Source: Sphingomonas swuensis
GTDB taxonomy: Bacteria > Pseudomonadota > Alphaproteobacteria > Sphingomonadales > Sphingomonadaceae
Direction: 5' to 3'
DNA: 64,000 nt
Assembly (NCBI RefSeq): GCF_039538045.1
Contig: NZ_BAABBQ010000001.1
Span: 332,001-396,000 of the forward strand
The notes beneath the pieces are model-generated. The model was given only the letters and a program-made list of their open reading frames with translations. It was not told the origin of the DNA and made no database searches. Positions within the stretch are counted from its first letter, which is position 1. Each line of letters starts with the position of its first letter. Both the position numbers and the translations under genes were made by a program. Of the stretch, positions 8,630 to 27,704 are shown one piece after another.

Positions 8630-10051
8630 ATGACCAGCATTACCGACCCGCGCCGCTTCCTCTATGCCGGCGCGCTCGACCCCGACGAGGCCCGTCGCCT
8701 CGCCGCCCGCCACCTCTCCGCGCACGATGATGGCGAGCTCTACCTCCAGTATCGCCGCTCGGAAGCGTTCGGCTTCGACGACGGCCGGCTGAAGACCGCC
8801 GACTATCATGTCGGGCAGGGCTTCGGGCTGCGCGGCGTGTCGGGCGAGACCACTGCCTTCGCCCATGCCAACGAGCTTTCCGCCGCCGCGATCGACCGCG
8901 CCGCCGAGACGCTGCAGCTGCTCACCCCCGGGAAGGCGCCCGCCGCCGCTCCGCCGCGCACCAACCAGGCGCAGTATGGCAGCGACGATCCGCTCGGACA
9001 GCTCGCCTTCGCCGACAAGGTGACCCTCTGCCAGGCGATCGACGCCGCCGCCCGCGCCCGCGATCCGCGCGTGGTCCAGGTCAGCGTCGGGCTCCAGGCG
9101 AGCTGGTCGGTGGTCGAGATCGTCCGGGCCGACGGCTTCGTCGCGACCGACGTCCGCCCGCTCGTCCGCTTGAACGTCTCGATCGTGGTCGAGCAGAACG
9201 GCCGCCGCGAGATGGGCTTCCACGGGCTCGGCGGTCGCTACGACATGAACCGGCTGTTCGACGAAGGCACCTGGAACCGGGCGATCGACATCGCGCTCGC
9301 GCAGGCGCTGGTGAACCTCGATTCGGTCCCCGCTCCGGCGGGCGAGATGACCGTGGTGTGCGGCCCCGGCTGGCCCGGTGTCCTCCTCCACGAAGCGGTC
9401 GGCCATACGCTCGAAGGCGACTTCAACCGCAAGGGCACCAGCGCCTTCTCCGGGATGCTCGGCCAGCGGGTCGCGGCGCCGGGCGTCATCGTGGTCGACG
9501 ACGGCGCGATGCACGAGCGGCGCGGAAGCCTGACCATCGACGACGAGGGCACGCCGACCGGCCGGACCACGCTGATCGAGGACGGGATCCTCGTCGGCTA
9601 TCTCCAGGACCGCCTCAATGCGCGGCTGATGGGAGTCGCTCCCACCGGCAACGGTCGCCGCGAGAGCTTCGCCCATGCGCCGATGCCGCGGATGACCAAC
9701 ACCTTCATGCTCGGCGGCCGCGACGATCCTGCCGAGCTCACCGCGCGGGTCAAGGACGGCATCTACGCCAAGAGCTTCGGCGGCGGGCAGGTCGACATCA
9801 CCAGCGGCAAGTTCGTCTTCTCCTGCACCGAGGCCTACCGGATCCGCGACGGCAAGCTGGCCGAGCCGCTGAAAGGCGCGACCCTGATCGGCGACGGCCC
9901 GACCGTGCTGACCCGGGTCAAGGGCATCGGCAACGATCTCGAGCTCGACGAGGGCGTCGGCATCTGCGGCAAGGGCGGACAGAGCGTGCCCGCGGGAGTC
10001 GGCCAGCCGACCCTGCTGATCGAGGGACTGACGGTCGGCGGGACGGGCTAG
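8630..10051 (+). CDS. tldD: Metalloprotease TldD
   Basis: A 473-aa protein of the TldD/PmbA family, which forms a TldD-TldE heterodimeric zinc peptidase that removes leader peptides and degrades unfolded peptides. The metal site HEAVGH at 254-259 (H-E-x3-H, followed by D264) is present, as is the N-terminal segment DGRLKTADYHVGQGFG typical of TldD. Length is normal. The partner tldE (pmbA) is not in the window. The start at 8630 is a recognised family N-terminus (MTSITDPRRFLYAGALDPDE). The gene is convergent with the 10070 gene. Confidence 0.93.
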   Translation: MTSITDPRRFLYAGALDPDEARRLAARHLSAHDDGELYLQYRRSEAFGFDDGRLKTADYHVGQGFGLRGVSGETTAFAHANELSAAAIDRAAETLQLLTPGKAPAAAPPRTNQAQYGSDDPLGQLAFADKVTLCQAIDAAARARDPRVVQVSVGLQASWSVVEIVRADGFVATDVRPLVRLNVSIVVEQNGRREMGFHGLGGRYDMNRLFDEGTWNRAIDIALAQALVNLDSVPAPAGEMTVVCGPGWPGVLLHEAVGHTLEGDFNRKGTSAFSGMLGQRVAAPGVIVVDDGAMHERRGSLTIDDEGTPTGRTTLIEDGILVGYLQDRLNARLMGVAPTGNGRRESFAHAPMPRMTNTFMLGGRDDPAELTARVKDGIYAKSFGGGQVDITSGKFVFSCTEAYRIRDGKLAEPLKGATLIGDGPTVLTRVKGIGNDLELDEGVGICGKGGQSVPAGVGQPTLLIEGLTVGGTG

Positions 10052-20547: not shown

Positions 20548-20979
20548 CTAGTGGAGGAGGCGCTGGAATCCCTCGGCCGGAACGGGGCCGCCGGTCGCGG
20601 CGGTCGCGAGATGGCGGCCGTGCGCAAGGGCCAGCGTCAGCTCGGCATAGAGCCGGTCCCAGAAGGGCTGCGGGACGCGCAGTGCTTCGGCATGCTGGAA
20701 CAGCTCCACCGCGGCCTCGCCGCCGTCGGAGGCCAGCCGCAGCCGGCAGCCGAGCAGGCCACCGCACATCTCGTCGGCCAGCTCACCCCTGGTCGCGAGG
20801 CGGGCATTCATCAGGAAGCCGGCGAGCAATTCAGCGCCGTAGAGGTCGAGCAGGACCGGTTCCTTGCCGGGGCGCTCGGGATCGCTCAGCTGAATGACCA
20901 TCGCCTCGTCGGCCGAGCCGCGGTCGAGGCCGATCCGCAGTCGACGCCCGGAAGCGTGGACGATGTCTCGGATGCGCAT
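20548..20979 (-). CDS. Hypothetical protein next to the flagellin gene
   Basis: A 143-aa soluble protein, mildly acidic, beginning MRIRDIVHASGRRLRIGLDR. No family is recognised. It lies about 110 bases downstream of fliC on the same strand and is convergent with msrB. Several flagellar clusters carry small uncharacterised proteins near fliC, but nothing in this sequence (no FlaF/FlbT-like pattern that I can see) ties it to flagella. Confidence 0.6.
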   Translation of the reverse strand: MRIRDIVHASGRRLRIGLDRGSADEAMVIQLSDPERPGKEPVLLDLYGAELLAGFLMNARLATRGELADEMCGGLLGCRLRLASDGGEAAVELFQHAEALRVPQPFWDRLYAELTLALAHGRHLATAATGGPVPAEGFQRLLH

Positions 20980-21092: not shown

Positions 21093-21944
21093 TTAGCGGA
21101 ACAACGACATGATCGCCTGCGGCGACTGGTTGGCGATCGACAGCGCCTGGATGCCGAGCTGCTGCTTGACCTGCAGGGCCTGCAGCTTCGCGCTCTCCTT
21201 CGCCAGGTCGGCGTCGACGAGGTTGCCGACCGATGCCTCGACCACGTCGCTGAGCTTGCTCGAGAAGGCGAGCTGCGAGTCGATCCGGCGCGCGGCCGAG
21301 CCGAGCGAGGACAGCGAGGTCTTGAGGTTGTTCTGGCTGGTGGTCAGCGTCTCGACCATCGTCTGCGCATTGGCCTGGGTCGAGATGTCGCCCGCAGCGG
21401 CGACGGTGATGACCGAACCGCCAAGGTCGAGCCCCTGGTTGGCGACGCTCAGCGCATCGGGCTGCCAGCCCGCGGTCGTACCATCGCCATCCTGCACCGA
21501 CTGGAGCGCCGCGACGCTTCCGCCGCCCGCCTTGAGGATGTTGGTGCCGTTGAAGTCCGACGAGTTGACCACCGTGGTGATGCGGTCGCGCAGGGCCACG
21601 AAGTCCTGGTTGATCGCGTCGCGGCTGGCCTGGTCGATCGTGTCGGCGGCCTCATAGGCCTTCTTCTTCATCTCGATCAGGATGTCGGAGACCTGCTCGG
21701 CGCCGGCAACGGCGACGTCGGTCACCGACTTGGCGCGGTTGAGGCTGTTCGACACGGCCTTGAGGCCATTCATGTCGCTACGCAGCGTCTGGGCGATCGC
21801 GAAGGCGGCGCTGTCGTCCTTGGTCGAGCCGACATTGTAGCCCGAGTTGATCCGGCTCTGCGTCTGGGCGAGGCCCTTGTTGGTCGAAGCCAGGCTCTGC
21901 AGGGCGGCCATCGCGCCGACGTTGGTGTTCACGGTAAAGGACAT
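21093..21944 (-). CDS. fliC: Flagellin
   Basis: A 283-aa flagellin with the two conserved coiled-coil ends that form the filament core: an N-terminal MSFTVNTNVGAMAALQSLAS with LNRAKSV, and a C-terminal LQVKQQLGIQALSIANQSPQ ending in LFR. The variable surface domain is short, as in many alphaproteobacterial flagellins. It starts after an AAGGA site and a leader of about 150 bases carrying two hairpins. The frame is intact, unlike two other genes of this locus. Filament assembly would need a complete basal body, which this locus cannot supply alone. Confidence 0.95.
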   Translation of the reverse strand: MSFTVNTNVGAMAALQSLASTNKGLAQTQSRINSGYNVGSTKDDSAAFAIAQTLRSDMNGLKAVSNSLNRAKSVTDVAVAGAEQVSDILIEMKKKAYEAADTIDQASRDAINQDFVALRDRITTVVNSSDFNGTNILKAGGGSVAALQSVQDGDGTTAGWQPDALSVANQGLDLGGSVITVAAAGDISTQANAQTMVETLTTSQNNLKTSLSSLGSAARRIDSQLAFSSKLSDVVEASVGNLVDADLAKESAKLQALQVKQQLGIQALSIANQSPQAIMSLFR

Positions 21945-22101: not shown

Positions 22102-22833
22102 TCAGAAGGGGAAGAGCGCGTCGAACAGCTGCTGACCCCAACGTGCCGACTGCGCGCTGCTGAGCTGACCGCGGCCGCCGTACAGGACCCGCGCCTCGGC
22201 GATCCGGTCGTGCCGCACGCTATTGTCGCGGGCGATGTCGGAAGGCCGCACGATTCCGGTGATGACCAGCTCGCGAAGCTCGTTGTTGACCCGCATCTCC
22301 TGTCGGCCGCGAACCACCAGATTGCCGTTCGGAAGGACTTCGGTGACGAGCGCGGCTAGGGTCATGTTGATCGTCTCGCCGCGGGTGATCTTGCCCGCGC
22401 CAGACGAGCGGCTGTCCGAAGTCCCGTCGATCGAGGCCGAGGTGGCCGAACCCGGGACGATCCGGTCGAGCAGCTTGTCGAGGCCGAGCAGGCCGGCGAT
22501 CCCGGCATTCTCTCCGCCGCCGCGCTGGCGCTCGCTGCGATTGTCGAACGAGGCATTGTCGGCGACCGAGATGCGGATGGTCAGCAGGTCGCCGCGGGCG
22601 CGGGCACGATTGTCGGAGAAGAGCGAGGCCGCGCCTTCGCGGAACAGCGATGCGCTCGGGGCCGGGGCGACCGGGACCGACGCGGTGGCGATCGACCGCT
22701 CGACCGCGGGGGCGGGAACGTCGGTCGGAACGGAGAAGCGCGGGGGCCGGCCGATGCTGGCAACCTTGCCCGCGATGCTGCAGCCACCGAGGGCAAGGCT
22801 TGCGGCGGCGAGAAGACAGGGGGAGCGGGGCAT
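22102..22833 (-). CDS. flgH: Flagellar L-ring protein FlgH
   Basis: A 243-aa outer membrane lipoprotein that forms the L-ring around the flagellar rod. The lipobox ALGGC places the lipidated cysteine at residue 18. Family segments include SLFSDNRARARGDLLTIRI, ITRGETINMTLAALVTEVLPNGNL, GRQEMRVNNELREL and the C-terminal ARVLYGGRGQLSSAQ. Length is normal. It is separated from flgA by 25 bases. flgI, which usually follows flgH, is missing and fliC comes next instead. Confidence 0.93.
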   Translation of the reverse strand: MPRSPCLLAAASLALGGCSIAGKVASIGRPPRFSVPTDVPAPAVERSIATASVPVAPAPSASLFREGAASLFSDNRARARGDLLTIRISVADNASFDNRSERQRGGGENAGIAGLLGLDKLLDRIVPGSATSASIDGTSDSRSSGAGKITRGETINMTLAALVTEVLPNGNLVVRGRQEMRVNNELRELVITGIVRPSDIARDNSVRHDRIAEARVLYGGRGQLSSAQSARWGQQLFDALFPF

Positions 22834-22858: not shown

Positions 22859-23136
22859 TCAGGGGGTGAAGAGGCGAACCTCGCCGTTGTTCTCGACCAC
22901 CCCGTCAAGGGTTCGGCGGGTGGCAAGCGCGACCACCCGGATCCGCTGGCCGAGCTGGCCGTCGGACAGCGCGCGACCCGCGGTGGCGATGCGAAGCGCG
23001 CCCGAGCGGATGAGAAGCGTGACCGGCTGCCCGCGGCGGACCAGCCGTTCCTCGACCGGAGCGGATGCAGGCGGCGTCTCGGCGATCGGCGCGAGCGGGT
23101 CTGGCGTGGCGAGCACCAGGGCAAGCAGCAGCGCGC

Positions 23137-23140
<4 letters not shown>
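22859..23140 (-). CDS. flgA: Short FlgA-like P-ring chaperone
   Basis: A 93-aa protein from a GTG overlapping the flgG stop (GTGA). Residues 1-17 (SALLLALVLATPDPLA) look like a short signal peptide. Residues 33-93 (LVRRGQPVTLLIRSGALRI ... ALATRRTLDGVVENNGEVRL) match the C-terminal SAF domain of FlgA, the periplasmic chaperone for P-ring assembly. Most FlgA proteins are 130-240 aa and carry an extra N-terminal domain, absent here. It may be a natural minimal form or a truncated remnant; neighbours with clear lesions favour caution. Confidence 0.8.
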
Positions 23141-23922
<782 letters not shown>

Positions 23923-23945: not shown

Positions 23946-24689
23946 TTAGTTGCGGAAGGCGCCGAGCCGCTGGATGGCGGTGCGGCGAAGGTCGTTGAGT
24001 GCGTCGCCCATGCGCTGGCTCGACTGGTAGGCGCGCAGGATCTGGATCATCGCGGTCGTCTCGGCGACGGGCTGCACGTTGCTCGCCTCGAGCCCGCCGC
24101 TGCGCAGCCGCGTCTCGGTCGGGGCGAGCAGCCGCCCGCCGTTGCCGTTAAATAGCCCGTCGCCCCGCGGGGTGACGCTCCGCTCGTCGGCGAACACCGT
24201 GATCCCGAGGCGGCCGAGCGGGCCGTCGGGACCGTCAACCGAACCGTCGCGCCCGATGCGGAGACGCCCCTGCGCTTCCGGCGGGACCGTCACCGGCTGG
24301 CCATTGTCGCCGAGGACGGGAAGGCCGGCGGGCGTGACGATGCGCCCGTCTTCAAGGATGGCGAGGTTGCCGGCGCGGGTGAAGGCGGTGCTTCCGTCGG
24401 GCAGGCCGACCGACAGGTAGCCGGGCCCTTCGATCGCGAGGTCGAGCGGGTTGCCGGTGGTGGTGAAGGCCCCCTCGGCCGTGTCGTGGATGGCGCCGAA
24501 GTCGAGCACGAAGGAGACGTCGCGAGCGGCGGCATCGGTGCCTTCGCTGCGGCGCAGGGTTTCTTCGAACATCGGCTGTTCGCGCTTGAAGCCGGTGGTG
24601 CTGACGTTGGCGAGATTGTTCGCGACCACGTCCATCCGCCGCCTCAGAGCCGTGTCGTGGCTCAGCAGCACATAGGCGGGAATGTCCAT
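23946..24689 (-). CDS. flgF: Flagellar basal-body rod protein FlgF
   Basis: A 247-aa rod protein of the proximal rod. It has the N-terminal rod motif (LLSHDTALRRRMDVVANNLANVST, compressed), the middle segment DLAIEGPGYLSVGLPDGSTA and the C-terminal SNVQPVAETTAMIQILRAYQ. Length is normal and the frame is intact. It lies 23 bases ahead of flgG and is divergent from fliL across a 104-base gap. flgB, flgC and flgE, which normally accompany it, are absent. Confidence 0.92.
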   Translation of the reverse strand: MDIPAYVLLSHDTALRRRMDVVANNLANVSTTGFKREQPMFEETLRRSEGTDAAARDVSFVLDFGAIHDTAEGAFTTTGNPLDLAIEGPGYLSVGLPDGSTAFTRAGNLAILEDGRIVTPAGLPVLGDNGQPVTVPPEAQGRLRIGRDGSVDGPDGPLGRLGITVFADERSVTPRGDGLFNGNGGRLLAPTETRLRSGGLEASNVQPVAETTAMIQILRAYQSSQRMGDALNDLRRTAIQRLGAFRN

Positions 24690-24793: not shown

Positions 24794-25294
24794 ATGAGCG
24801 AGGCGGCGACCGAGCCGGAGGATAAGGAGGAGGAGGCTCCGGCTGAAGCTCCGCCGCCACCCGGCAAGAAGAAGCGCCTGATCCTGATCATCGCCGCGGT
24901 CGTCGTGCTTGCGCTCGGCGGAGGCGGAGGCTGGTACTTCCTCTCGGGAGGGGAAGAAACCGAGACCGCCGACCATGAAGCGGAGGAAGCGCCTGAGGCC
25001 TTCGTCGACGTTCCTCCGATCCAGGTGTCGATGCGGGCGGCGGACGGAAGCAGCCGGATGCTCAAGCTGCATGTCATGCTGGTCCCCGGCTCGCTCACCG
25101 AGGAGGAACTGACTCATCGCCTGCCGCAGCTGATCGACCGCTACCAGCCCTTTCTCCGCGAGCTTCGGCCGGAGGACCTCGCCGGCTCGGCGGCCACCTT
25201 CCGGGTCAAGGAGGAGTTGCTGATCCGCTCCAACCAGGCGCTCGGGGTCGGCTCGGTTCGCGACGTCCTGATCCAGGACCTGATGCAGGGATGA
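24794..25294 (+). CDS. fliL: Flagellar basal-body-associated protein FliL
   Basis: A 166-aa inner membrane protein. The N-terminus is acidic and Pro-rich, one span follows at about 28-50 (LILIIAAVVVLALGGGGGWY), then a periplasmic domain with the family segment VDVPPIQVSM and KEELLIRSNQALG. FliL supports stator function at the motor. The frame is intact. Its stop overlaps an ATG at 25291 (ATGA). In most flagellar clusters that next gene is fliM, but here the following open frame turns into flgD. Confidence 0.88.
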   Translation: MSEAATEPEDKEEEAPAEAPPPPGKKKRLILIIAAVVVLALGGGGGWYFLSGGEETETADHEAEEAPEAFVDVPPIQVSMRAADGSSRMLKLHVMLVPGSLTEEELTHRLPQLIDRYQPFLRELRPEDLAGSAATFRVKEELLIRSNQALGVGSVRDVLIQDLMQG

Positions 25295-25819
25295 GCAGCG
25301 ACCCGCCCGCCTTCGACCACCCAGCAGCTGGTCCAATATTCGCAGGTCGAGCAGGCGCTTCAGCAGACCTCGGTGCTGAAGGACATATTGTCGCGACTGT
25401 CGGGCGACGACCTTTCGCGTGCCGGACAGCTGATCGACCGAACCGCCGAGTTCCGCTCCTCGGTCAGCGGACTGAGCGCAGACCGTCCCGCCGAATGGCG
25501 CTGGAGCTTTCCGGCGGCGCCGAGCTCGGTCAGTGCCGAGATCCTCGACAGCGGCGGCAGGGTCGTCGCCAGGCCCGCGGTGACGGGCGCCGGCACCGGC
25601 TCGCTCCAATGGGACGGAACGCTCGCCGACGGTGGCAAGGCCGGAGAGGGGGCCTACGTCCTTCGATTGACCGCCAAGGATGCAGGCGGCGCAGCGATGA
25701 CCGCCGACCTCACCAGCATCGGCCGGGTTCGCGAAGTCCTCTCGCGCGATGGCGAATTATGGGTCGGGCTCGGTGGTGTCGCGCTGCCGCTCGACAAGCT
25801 GGTGCGGATCGCCGCCTGA
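25291..25819 (+). pseudogene. flgD: 5'-truncated, frameshifted flgD (hook cap), possibly fused to a fliM start
   Basis: From 25316 the frame reads TTQQLVQYSQVEQALQQTSV and continues to the FlgD hook-capping domain (GRVVARPAVTGAG ... LQWDGTLADGGKAGEGAYVL), ending LDKLVRIAA. The usual first 50-60 residues with the FLxLLxxQLxxQDPxNP motif are missing. The only nearby ATG (25291, overlapping the fliL stop) is in another frame and gives MSSDPPAFDHPAAG and then unrelated sequence. So the 5' end was lost and the remainder is out of frame with any plausible start. A GTG at 25373 could start a 148-aa fragment lacking the FliK/hook interaction region. Confidence 0.8.
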
Positions 25820-25877: not shown

Positions 25878-27704
25878 TCAGAAGCCGACGCGGACCCCCG
25901 CGTGGACGCTGACCTCATTGCCCTGATCCTTGCCGGCGGTGGTGCTGGCGAGGACATCGAGCTGCACCGACTGGGTGATCGCCGCCGAGGCACCGCCCGC
26001 GAAGCGCGTGTACATGCCCTTGTCGCGCTCGCCGAGGTCGAAGCTGTTGACGATGATCGGCGAGGCCGTCTGCGAGTAGGACAGGGTCCGTCCGTCGCCC
26101 TTGAAGTCCTTCTCGAGCATTGCCGAGGCGAACGGGCGAAGCGACGTGCCGCCGGCATCGAGGTCGCCGCGAAGCTCGAGGCCGGCGCCGCCGACCAGCG
26201 CCGAATAGCGCTGCTTGCCGACGTTGAGCGCAAGCGCGGCATCGCCTTCCTCGGTGTAGCCGTCGACGCTCGCCCGGGCATAGTCGAGCGACACGACCGG
26301 GCCGACGCGGAAGCCGGCGATCGGGGCGAGGTAGCCGGCCTTGGCACCGGCGAGGACATGCTTGCCGTCCGGATCGGCGCTGAGGTCGTCGATCACGCCG
26401 CGACGGGTGATGTCATAGTTGGTGCGGCCGGCACCGGCATGCGCCTGGATGAAGGCCGGCCCGATGGCGTAGGTCGCATAGGCGCCGATCTGGAGCGCGT
26501 GGCCCCGCACGTTGGCGCTGTCGATCCCGAATTTGGCGCGCACCCGGCTGACATTGCCGGCAATGCCGACGAGGCCGTTGCCGCCGAAGCCGAACTCGGC
26601 ACCGGCAGTGGCGCCGACACCGTCGACGTCGAAGGCATCGGTGACGTCGCTCATGCCGACGTCACGGCTGAAGTGGTCGCCGATAACGAAGACGCGTGCA
26701 CCCTCGAGCACCTCGCCGTCGCGCGGGCTGCCGAGATCCATCCGGCTGTTGAGCGTGCGCCCGAACTGGCGGGCATTGTCGAGCGCGATGTCGCTGGTCG
26801 CGCCGAGGTTGAGCGGCGCCTGAAGCTGGCGCTGCACATATTGGCCGACCACCCGGAAGCCGTCCGAGCTGAGGTGCAGCGCGTCGACGTAGAAGAGATA
26901 GCCCGCGCAGCCGCTCAGCACGTTGGCGGTGGTTGCCGGACAGACGACCCCGTTGGGAAGCCCGTAGGCGGCGCTGTTGGCCTGGACCCGCTCGAGCACC
27001 TTGGTGAGGTCGAGATAATGGACGGTCACGCCGTTCGCGGCATAGCCGGCGAGCGTCGTCTGCAACGCCGCATTGTAGGTCGTCGAGAAGGTGTTGCGGA
27101 CCGCCTGCGCCGACGGGTTGGTCGCGACCTCGGGCAGCAGCGCGGTGTTGCCGGCGAGGAAGCTGATGGTCGGGGCACCGGCCGCGACCAGCCGATTGAG
27201 CTGGGTGCGCGCGGCAAGAATCGCGTCGTTGACGGTCAGCGTGCCATATTCGCCGCGCTGGAAATAGCGCGCGTCGTTGCCGCCGATCGAGACGGTGAGG
27301 AGGTCGCCCTTGCCGAAGGTCGGAGTCGTGACCGGGAAGACGTCGTCGCGCTGCGGTCCGACGTTGAGGAACTGGTCGACCTGATACTGGAAGCTGAACG
27401 AGCCCGTCGCGGTGCCTGTCGCCGAGGCGCCGCCGATGGCAAAATTGTCGACCGGGGCATTCAGCAGGAAGGACAATGTGTCGATATAGTTGGTCCCGCC
27501 CGAGAAGCGGCCGGTGCGGTAGATGCCGCTCTGGAACGTCAGCGGGCTCTGCCCGATCAGCGGGAACAGGTTGCCGTCGTCGGCATAGCTGTCGCCGAAG
27601 GTGACGATGCGGTCGATCCGCTGGGCAGACGCGGGGCTCGCCACGGCGACGGCACCAAGGGCGGTCGCAGCCATCAGGGCGCGAGAAGCGAGACGCTTAA
27701 TCAT
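25878..27704 (-). CDS. Autotransporter GDSL (SGNH) esterase
   Basis: A 608-aa outer membrane esterase. A signal peptide (1-28, ending SPASAQ) is followed by a GDSL hydrolase domain (about 30-310) with the nucleophile in FGDSYADDGN (Ser39), block III GGND and the catalytic Asp-His pair in DALHLSSDG. A C-terminal autotransporter barrel (about 340-608) ends in Phe (VHAGVRVGF). It resembles EstA-type lipolytic autotransporters. Only three cysteines in all and no RGD motif stand out. A strong terminator follows. The passenger is likely displayed on the cell surface. Confidence 0.92.
   Translation of the reverse strand: MIKRLASRALMAATALGAVAVASPASAQRIDRIVTFGDSYADDGNLFPLIGQSPLTFQSGIYRTGRFSGGTNYIDTLSFLLNAPVDNFAIGGASATGTATGSFSFQYQVDQFLNVGPQRDDVFPVTTPTFGKGDLLTVSIGGNDARYFQRGEYGTLTVNDAILAARTQLNRLVAAGAPTISFLAGNTALLPEVATNPSAQAVRNTFSTTYNAALQTTLAGYAANGVTVHYLDLTKVLERVQANSAAYGLPNGVVCPATTANVLSGCAGYLFYVDALHLSSDGFRVVGQYVQRQLQAPLNLGATSDIALDNARQFGRTLNSRMDLGSPRDGEVLEGARVFVIGDHFSRDVGMSDVTDAFDVDGVGATAGAEFGFGGNGLVGIAGNVSRVRAKFGIDSANVRGHALQIGAYATYAIGPAFIQAHAGAGRTNYDITRRGVIDDLSADPDGKHVLAGAKAGYLAPIAGFRVGPVVSLDYARASVDGYTEEGDAALALNVGKQRYSALVGGAGLELRGDLDAGGTSLRPFASAMLEKDFKGDGRTLSYSQTASPIIVNSFDLGERDKGMYTRFAGGASAAITQSVQLDVLASTTAGKDQGNEVSVHAGVRVGF

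Follow-up and report, generated by a model that had tools for sequence, protein, structure and literature searches.

The flagellar locus of Sphingomonas swuensis described here lies in a window of 64,000 nucleotides (the whole stretch of DNA that was analysed; the genome holding it is called G000). It raises the question of how a complete fliL gene has come to be followed, after a stub of 28 bases, by the back part of flgD, and what this joint (J1) tells about the flagellum of the organism. The joint is a genuine scar of lost flagellar genes, and we hold with good confidence that it is a deletion-type scar left by the loss of the flagellum. When motility is lost, random decay is the customary explanation; here two exact joints recur across species and neighbours. 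The features of the locus are collected in Table 1.

Table 1. Flagellar remnants and bordering genes in the window.
Feature	Positions	Strand	Basis and remarks
Gene Z, 143 aa, left border of locus	20548..20979	-	Also adjoins fliC in L001
fliC flagellin, complete	21093..21944	-	Also complete in G070; last 56 codons only in five J2 genomes
flgH	22102..22833	-	PF02107
flgA of 93 aa, keeping the C-terminal chaperone domain	22859..23140	-	Pfam
flgG, in-frame TAG at 23449-23451 after residue 157	23137..23922	-	Sequence and Pfam; G070 match stop-free
flgF, complete	23946..24689	-	Pfam
fliL, complete, 166 aa	24794..25294	+	PF03748, E 1.5e-9; TGA in the frame of the flgD remnant
Putative fliM stub, ATGA overlap with fliL, MSSDPPAFD	25291..25318	+	FliM N-termini of relatives; same-length stub in G070
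Joint J1, fliM stub/flgD	25319..25320	.	Sequence; placement +/- 1-2 bases
flgD, 3' three quarters	25320..25819	+	Sequence and Pfam; Ig-like domain about 25478-25684
GDSL autotransporter, right border	25878..27704	-	Likewise in G031 and G028, one gene further in G020

Direct reading of the sequence places the fliL stop TGA at 25292-25294 and an overlapping ATG at 25291-25293, from which the 28 bases 25291-25318 translate as MSSDPPAFD(H). From 25319/25320 flgD opens with TQQLVQYSQVEQ and runs to its stop at 25817-25819, and the flgD DNA matches of five relatives start at window positions 25319-25322. This confirms what an earlier note on this DNA had described, namely an ATG over the fliL stop that opens MSSDPPAF and is then followed by flgD in another frame. 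The frame of the flgD remnant is that of fliL and differs from that of the overlapping ATG; in the shared frame there are zero stops between the fliL TGA and flgD's own stop and, by eye, no in-frame ATG, GTG or TTG is present in G000 from the fliL stop to QYSQVEQ. The conserved N-terminus of FlgD is gone, as had been claimed: FlgD_ig (PF13860; 39.1 bits against a cut-off of 27) is the sole Pfam domain in the remnant, and the Pfam search found no FlgD N-terminal region (PF03963) there. The full FlgD of G092 carries PF03963 and PF13861 besides the Ig-like domain. The missing part, put at the 5' third of the gene in the earlier note, is about one quarter instead: TQQL stands at residue 50-58 of 215-223 in six full-length FlgDs from close relatives, and of about 218 codons the remnant thus lacks 49-57 at the 5' end.

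The codons in front of the joint had been assigned to fliM, on the ground that fliM normally follows fliL with such a start overlap, and both points are supported. In Sphingomonas mucosissima (L001; own gene call) FliM starts over the fliL stop, there with GTG. Short FliM starts like MSDDFDFDQADIDALFG or MSADVEFDQADIDALFG were found in five of nine FliMs fetched, which are 53-56% identical to the FliM of G087 and perhaps do not come from the closest relatives. Compared by eye with MSDDFDFDQADIDALFG, the stub of G000 and that of a second genome described below (MSSDPPAFD and MSDTPAAFD) fit the first nine codons of a putative short-start fliM.

The rest of the genome, one contig of 2.79 Mb that is 99.97% complete, was searched for the genes that a flagellum requires. 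Both fliM, whose loss had been proposed, and fliN are missing from the whole genome, with zero matches to PF01052 (FliM/N) in G000, a family matched in 8 of the 71 genomes of the genus survey. PF00771 (FlhA; 8 of the 71 genomes, two of them, G064 and G008, with fragments only) and PF00813 (FliP; 7 of 71) also have zero matches in G000, and none of the three families is matched in any of the seven genomes with J1 or the related joint J2. Judged by these tallies, most of the genus seems to be without flagella. The DNA of the basal-body cluster of G087 (two queries, 18.9 kb in total; gene labels from our own reading) is unmatched in G000, G070, G031 and G011, and gives only short matches, with E above 1e-4, in G028, G020 and G017; the control G092 matches the queries over kilobases. 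G029, which has matches to FlhA, FliP and FliM/N and a more distant flagellar set, gave only short pieces, so that diverged copies would be missed by these DNA queries.

Four matches to PF06429 in G000 belong to flgF, flgG, flgE and flgK and none is FlgC-like, and no complete flgD exists elsewhere, there being one weak partial match (E 2.8e-4) besides the remnant. On the other hand flgE, for which the earlier note had asked to search, is present in a second flagellar locus about 70 kb from the joint (C1:427.5-436 kb; L091 7515-16203). This locus holds flgL, flgK (696 aa), flgE, flbT, fliI and FliJ-like, muramidase-like and sigma-like genes; the FliJ-like and muramidase-like labels come from position and our own reading, neither gene having a Pfam or NCBIfam match. 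Its genes keep open frames though no export gate was found. At the joint locus, flgA consists of a short start and the C-terminal domain also in G070 (91 aa), and it has 134-154 aa in G087, L003 and L001 (own gene calls). With the genes that remain, G000 has no known way of assembling a flagellum.

A second species, G070, has the gene order and the joint J1 of G000. Its stub also has 28 bases, differs from that of G000 at 7 of the 28 positions and reads MSDTPAAFD. Related to this, five further genomes (G031, G028, G020, G011 and G017) have at the same locus another joint, J2, of equal length in all of them, in which fliC codon 228 is fused head-to-head to the same flgD position as in J1. These genomes retain gene Z, flgD and the last 56 codons of fliC only, and the flgD ends of J1 and J2 differ by one or two bases at most. 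A motA-like gene (own reading) adjoins flgD in G003, where the joint lies 5-6 bp deeper in flgD, and the proteins P0123 and P0133 begin MPTQQLV and LTTQQLV. The right neighbour of flgD is uvrB in G070 and G017, one gene further in G011, so that with the autotransporter of Table 1 all four combinations of joint and right flank exist. The same-locus comparison, G070 included, covers rows of at least 38% identity. The comparison with the flagellar clusters of relatives therefore bears out the earlier note in that the fliL-flgD joint recurs, but it also reveals a flgD end shared with other joints. The predicted protein P0158 has an antisense flgD start (LLDRLLDLRIL) followed by sense flgD, as from a local inversion. 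In a protein search from the fliC side, the J2 peptide was seen in 6 of 23 proteins fetched (120 listed, 1001 found), and one carrier, P0011, has a clearly different flagellin tail.

The arrangement of the species helps to order these events. Species of this kind are placed near Sphingomicrobium in GTDB. In a tree of the NAD-glutamate dehydrogenase and in a seven-gene tree, G070 stands beside G011, with G017 and then G020 outside, G031 and G028 apart, and G000 outermost or unresolved; the species tree holds 17 of 19 genomes, G008 (no match) and G086 (split match) being left out. Since G070, with J1, is next to G011, with J2, the two joints are interleaved, and together with the presence of all combinations of joint and flank this requires repeated formation or recombination inside fliC-flgD. 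A single origin of J2 with vertical descent was ruled out by the sisterhood of G070 and G011 and by the joints on both flanks. The single-gene trees partly conflict, flgE joining G000 with G020 and flgL joining G000 with G031 and G028, and recombination among these species is therefore likely.

Full-length FlgDs also occur inside the group. When 5.8 billion proteins were searched with the cut FlgD as query, 54 matched at E <= 1e-10, of which 34 were fetched. Fourteen of the latter are full-length (215-223 aa), with 66-75% identity, compared with 61-73% for the cut FlgDs of the genomes; they come from ena, lgn and jgi, probably from metagenomes, and were seen as proteins, so that chimeric assemblies are possible. 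The FlgD tree has 39 rows and 161 columns and uses 31 of the 34 fetched proteins (P0138, P0148 and P0150, copies of G020, G031 and G070, were left out). On it the full-length state must change 8 times, with 3 of the changes forced by starred branches, J2 needs 6 (5 forced), J1 needs 2, and the label for a cut with partner unknown needs 8 (4 forced); the J2 label is not clustered beyond chance on this tree, 142 of 500 shuffles being as low. P0124, which is full-length, and P0125, an antisense fliC tail followed by FlgD, are identical over 167 residues. Judging from these protein sequences, full-length FlgD lineages are nested among cut ones, and the flagellum has probably disappeared several times, each time with the same fixed endpoints. 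A single ancient loss with retained function was dropped as an explanation after the search and the tree placed full-length FlgD inside the group.

A deletion from fliM to flgD is the likeliest reading of J1, although the single event that the earlier note proposed is not demonstrated. No fliM...flgD arrangement in line was seen among the inspected G087, G092, G064, G008, G003, L001, L002 and L003; G004, G006, G029, G086, G088 and G009 lie outside this inspection. In the inspected relatives flgD adjoins fliK, and flhA too in G087 and G092; it lies apart from fliM in G087 and L003, and fliM is outside the stretch examined in G092, G064 and G008. With flgD placed elsewhere than fliM in relatives, both must first have come into line. 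At J1 the missing segment would then begin at fliM codon 9/10 and reach roughly to flgD codon 52, and the switch, proximal rod and export genes would have been lost with this deletion or around the same time. The leftovers would be fliC, flgH, the shortened flgA, the stopped flgG, flgF, fliL and the back part of flgD at the joint locus, and flgL-flgK-flgE and flbT-fliI about 70 kb away.

As for the recurring endpoints, deletion alleles might have been exchanged by homologous recombination through the remnants of fliC (168 bp) and flgD (500 bp), or else a break-prone site in flgD might account for them. It has been reported (PMC4774983, PMC5850275) that genomic islands are removed by recombination with short imported DNA. 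In a similar way, a short allele without the block could, by pairing at homologous flanks, take the block's place and so spread the joint between strains; the flanks here would be the remnants of fliC and flgD, and no donor was identified. We lean slightly to the exchange of deletion alleles, on the general ground that short imports may delete islands more easily than insert them. The choice between the two is testable with existing public assemblies.

Deletions might also form again and again with fixed ends because flgD has, immediately ahead of ACCCAGCAGCTGG, a site that breaks easily or is recognised by an enzyme, and fliC and fliM have partner sites; this is a possibility to be taken seriously, though we would not expect it to prove right. 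It would account for the flgD end, which J1 and J2 share to one or two bases and from which G003 departs by only 5-6 bp inwards, and the starts of P0123 and P0133 fall at the same place. The flagellins of G008 (L083 about 9787-9951) and P0016 are cut within one codon of the J2 end and have another partner, a re-use of the fliC end that such a site would also explain. Besides, the differences between the two J1 stubs indicate that these do not derive from a recent shared import. By eye, CAGCTG lies 6 bp beyond both J2 cut points, in fliC and in flgD. However, the fliM end has no CAGCTG at the matching place, no longer repeat was seen at the ends of the joints, the crossover falls outside the shared 6-mer, and CAG and CTG are common codons.

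A stronger form of this idea is in our opinion unlikely. In it a dedicated, or at any rate sequence-guided, process would excise the block repeatedly, always from fliC codon 228 or fliM codon 9 to flgD codon 52. If it were true, flagellate and non-flagellate cells would coexist in one species, and the block would be removable as a unit.

It is rather unlikely that J1 arose not by deletion but by a tandem duplication or a re-inserted circle, with its right end in flgD and its left end in fliM. The gene order of L003 (fliL-flgF-flgG-flgA-flgH-fliC, then flgD 4 kb on) has the orientation that would give exactly J1, and flgD is never downstream of fliM in the inspected relatives. Nevertheless, the border between Z and fliC is found in L001 too, that end being probably at its old place, and the other copy would have had to be lost in a further event.

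The deletion-type scar has to be reconciled with the state of the remaining genes, because most of them are intact and constrained (dN/dS 0.05-0.10 in flgE, flgK, flgL and fliI of G011-G070), unlike a long-dead remnant, and this counts against reading J1 as a scar of flagellum loss. For the pair G011-G070 dN/dS is 0.05 in flgL, 0.10 in flgK, 0.07 in flgE, 0.05 in fliI, 0.07 in the dehydrogenase and 0.29 in the cut flgD, and the fliC tail has 0 nonsynonymous against 6 synonymous changes (0-3.5 against 6-14 over four pairs). Values are higher in pairs that stand further apart within the group, up to 0.33 for flgL, 0.24 for flgK, 0.21 for flgE, 0.26 for fliI and 0.25 for the dehydrogenase. The Sphingomonas loci L003-L004, which have fliM, give 0.09 for flgL, 0.10 for flgK, 0.12 for flgE and 0.14 for the matching part of flgD. 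Three kinds of rows were dropped: flgE of L005-L007 (0.82 over 87 codons, a mis-hit), flgG and flgF of the J2 genomes (matches to other rod or hook proteins), and fliC of the J2 genomes past the last 56 codons (chance extension).

Such constraint could mean that half a flagellum has been put to new use, with FliC or its tail, FlgE, FlgK, FlgL, FliI and the cut FlgD working without the export apparatus, which we consider very doubtful. The values of G011-G070 are comparable with the 0.09-0.12 of the fliM-bearing loci, the cut flgD stays at 0.17-0.35 over nine pairs within the group, and the fliC tail changes mainly at synonymous sites. Against this, the cut flgD is less constrained than its counterpart in L003-L004, and in G000 and G028 the cut FlgD has, by eye, no start codon upstream of its conserved part. 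The genes also break one by one: flgG has its TAG in G000, and G028 is without flgE and most of flgK. In addition, fliI is split in G031 (L093), at residue 176/177, and flgL in G017 (L094), near residue 36-41, in a comparison covering at least 35% identity; the splits are frameshifts or sequence errors. These single breaks fit decay and a recent, repeated loss. With full-length lineages inside the group, recent repeated loss is simpler than function without export, and a recent loss accounts best for the constraint that the leftover flagellar genes still show. We infer that the loss was repeated and rather recent because full-length FlgD is nested among cut FlgDs and the closest pair shows no visible relaxation of selection.

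A sequencing or assembly error that joined two loci is a negligible alternative, since J1 is found in two separately assembled single-contig genomes, with a stub diverged enough to exclude chance or error, and the missing key genes are absent genome-wide; the junction is thus as genuine as the earlier note had supposed.

Remnants of this type have been noticed on a broader scale. A survey counted 34 of 11365 species with the filament protein but without the rotor protein, which it discusses as possible remnants of old losses, and Sphingomon* is not mentioned in its main text. Here too, filament, rod and hook genes are found without rotor genes. In the present case, by contrast, the scar itself is known almost to the base, joints of two types have an end in common in different species, and broken lineages surround full-length ones. 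Convergent, parallel loss of flagellar genes in Pseudomonadota has been described in PMC13063649, a study that, by its own account, does not use synteny and cannot distinguish complete systems from degenerate remnants. Parallel losses are common to both studies, whereas the breakpoints are compared here. Our literature search found nothing on this joint.

Finally, two parts of the locus merit a separate comment. All five J2 genomes (L010-L014) retain the last 56 codons of flagellin, in which most changes are silent, and the changes follow the flagellin frame, falling at third codon positions. The only standard start common to the five is a TTG in antisense flgD, six codons upstream of the fliC tail and without a clear ribosome site. 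An in-frame fusion of antisense fliC and FlgD was also considered and rejected; it is open in G031, G020, G011 and G017, and a stop closes it in G028. Gene Z, for which neither Pfam nor NCBIfam gave a match at E 0.01, evolves fast (dN/dS 0.4-0.6) and stands beside fliC in Sphingomonas mucosissima as well (L001 14095-14475); it is possibly an undescribed flagellin-associated protein.
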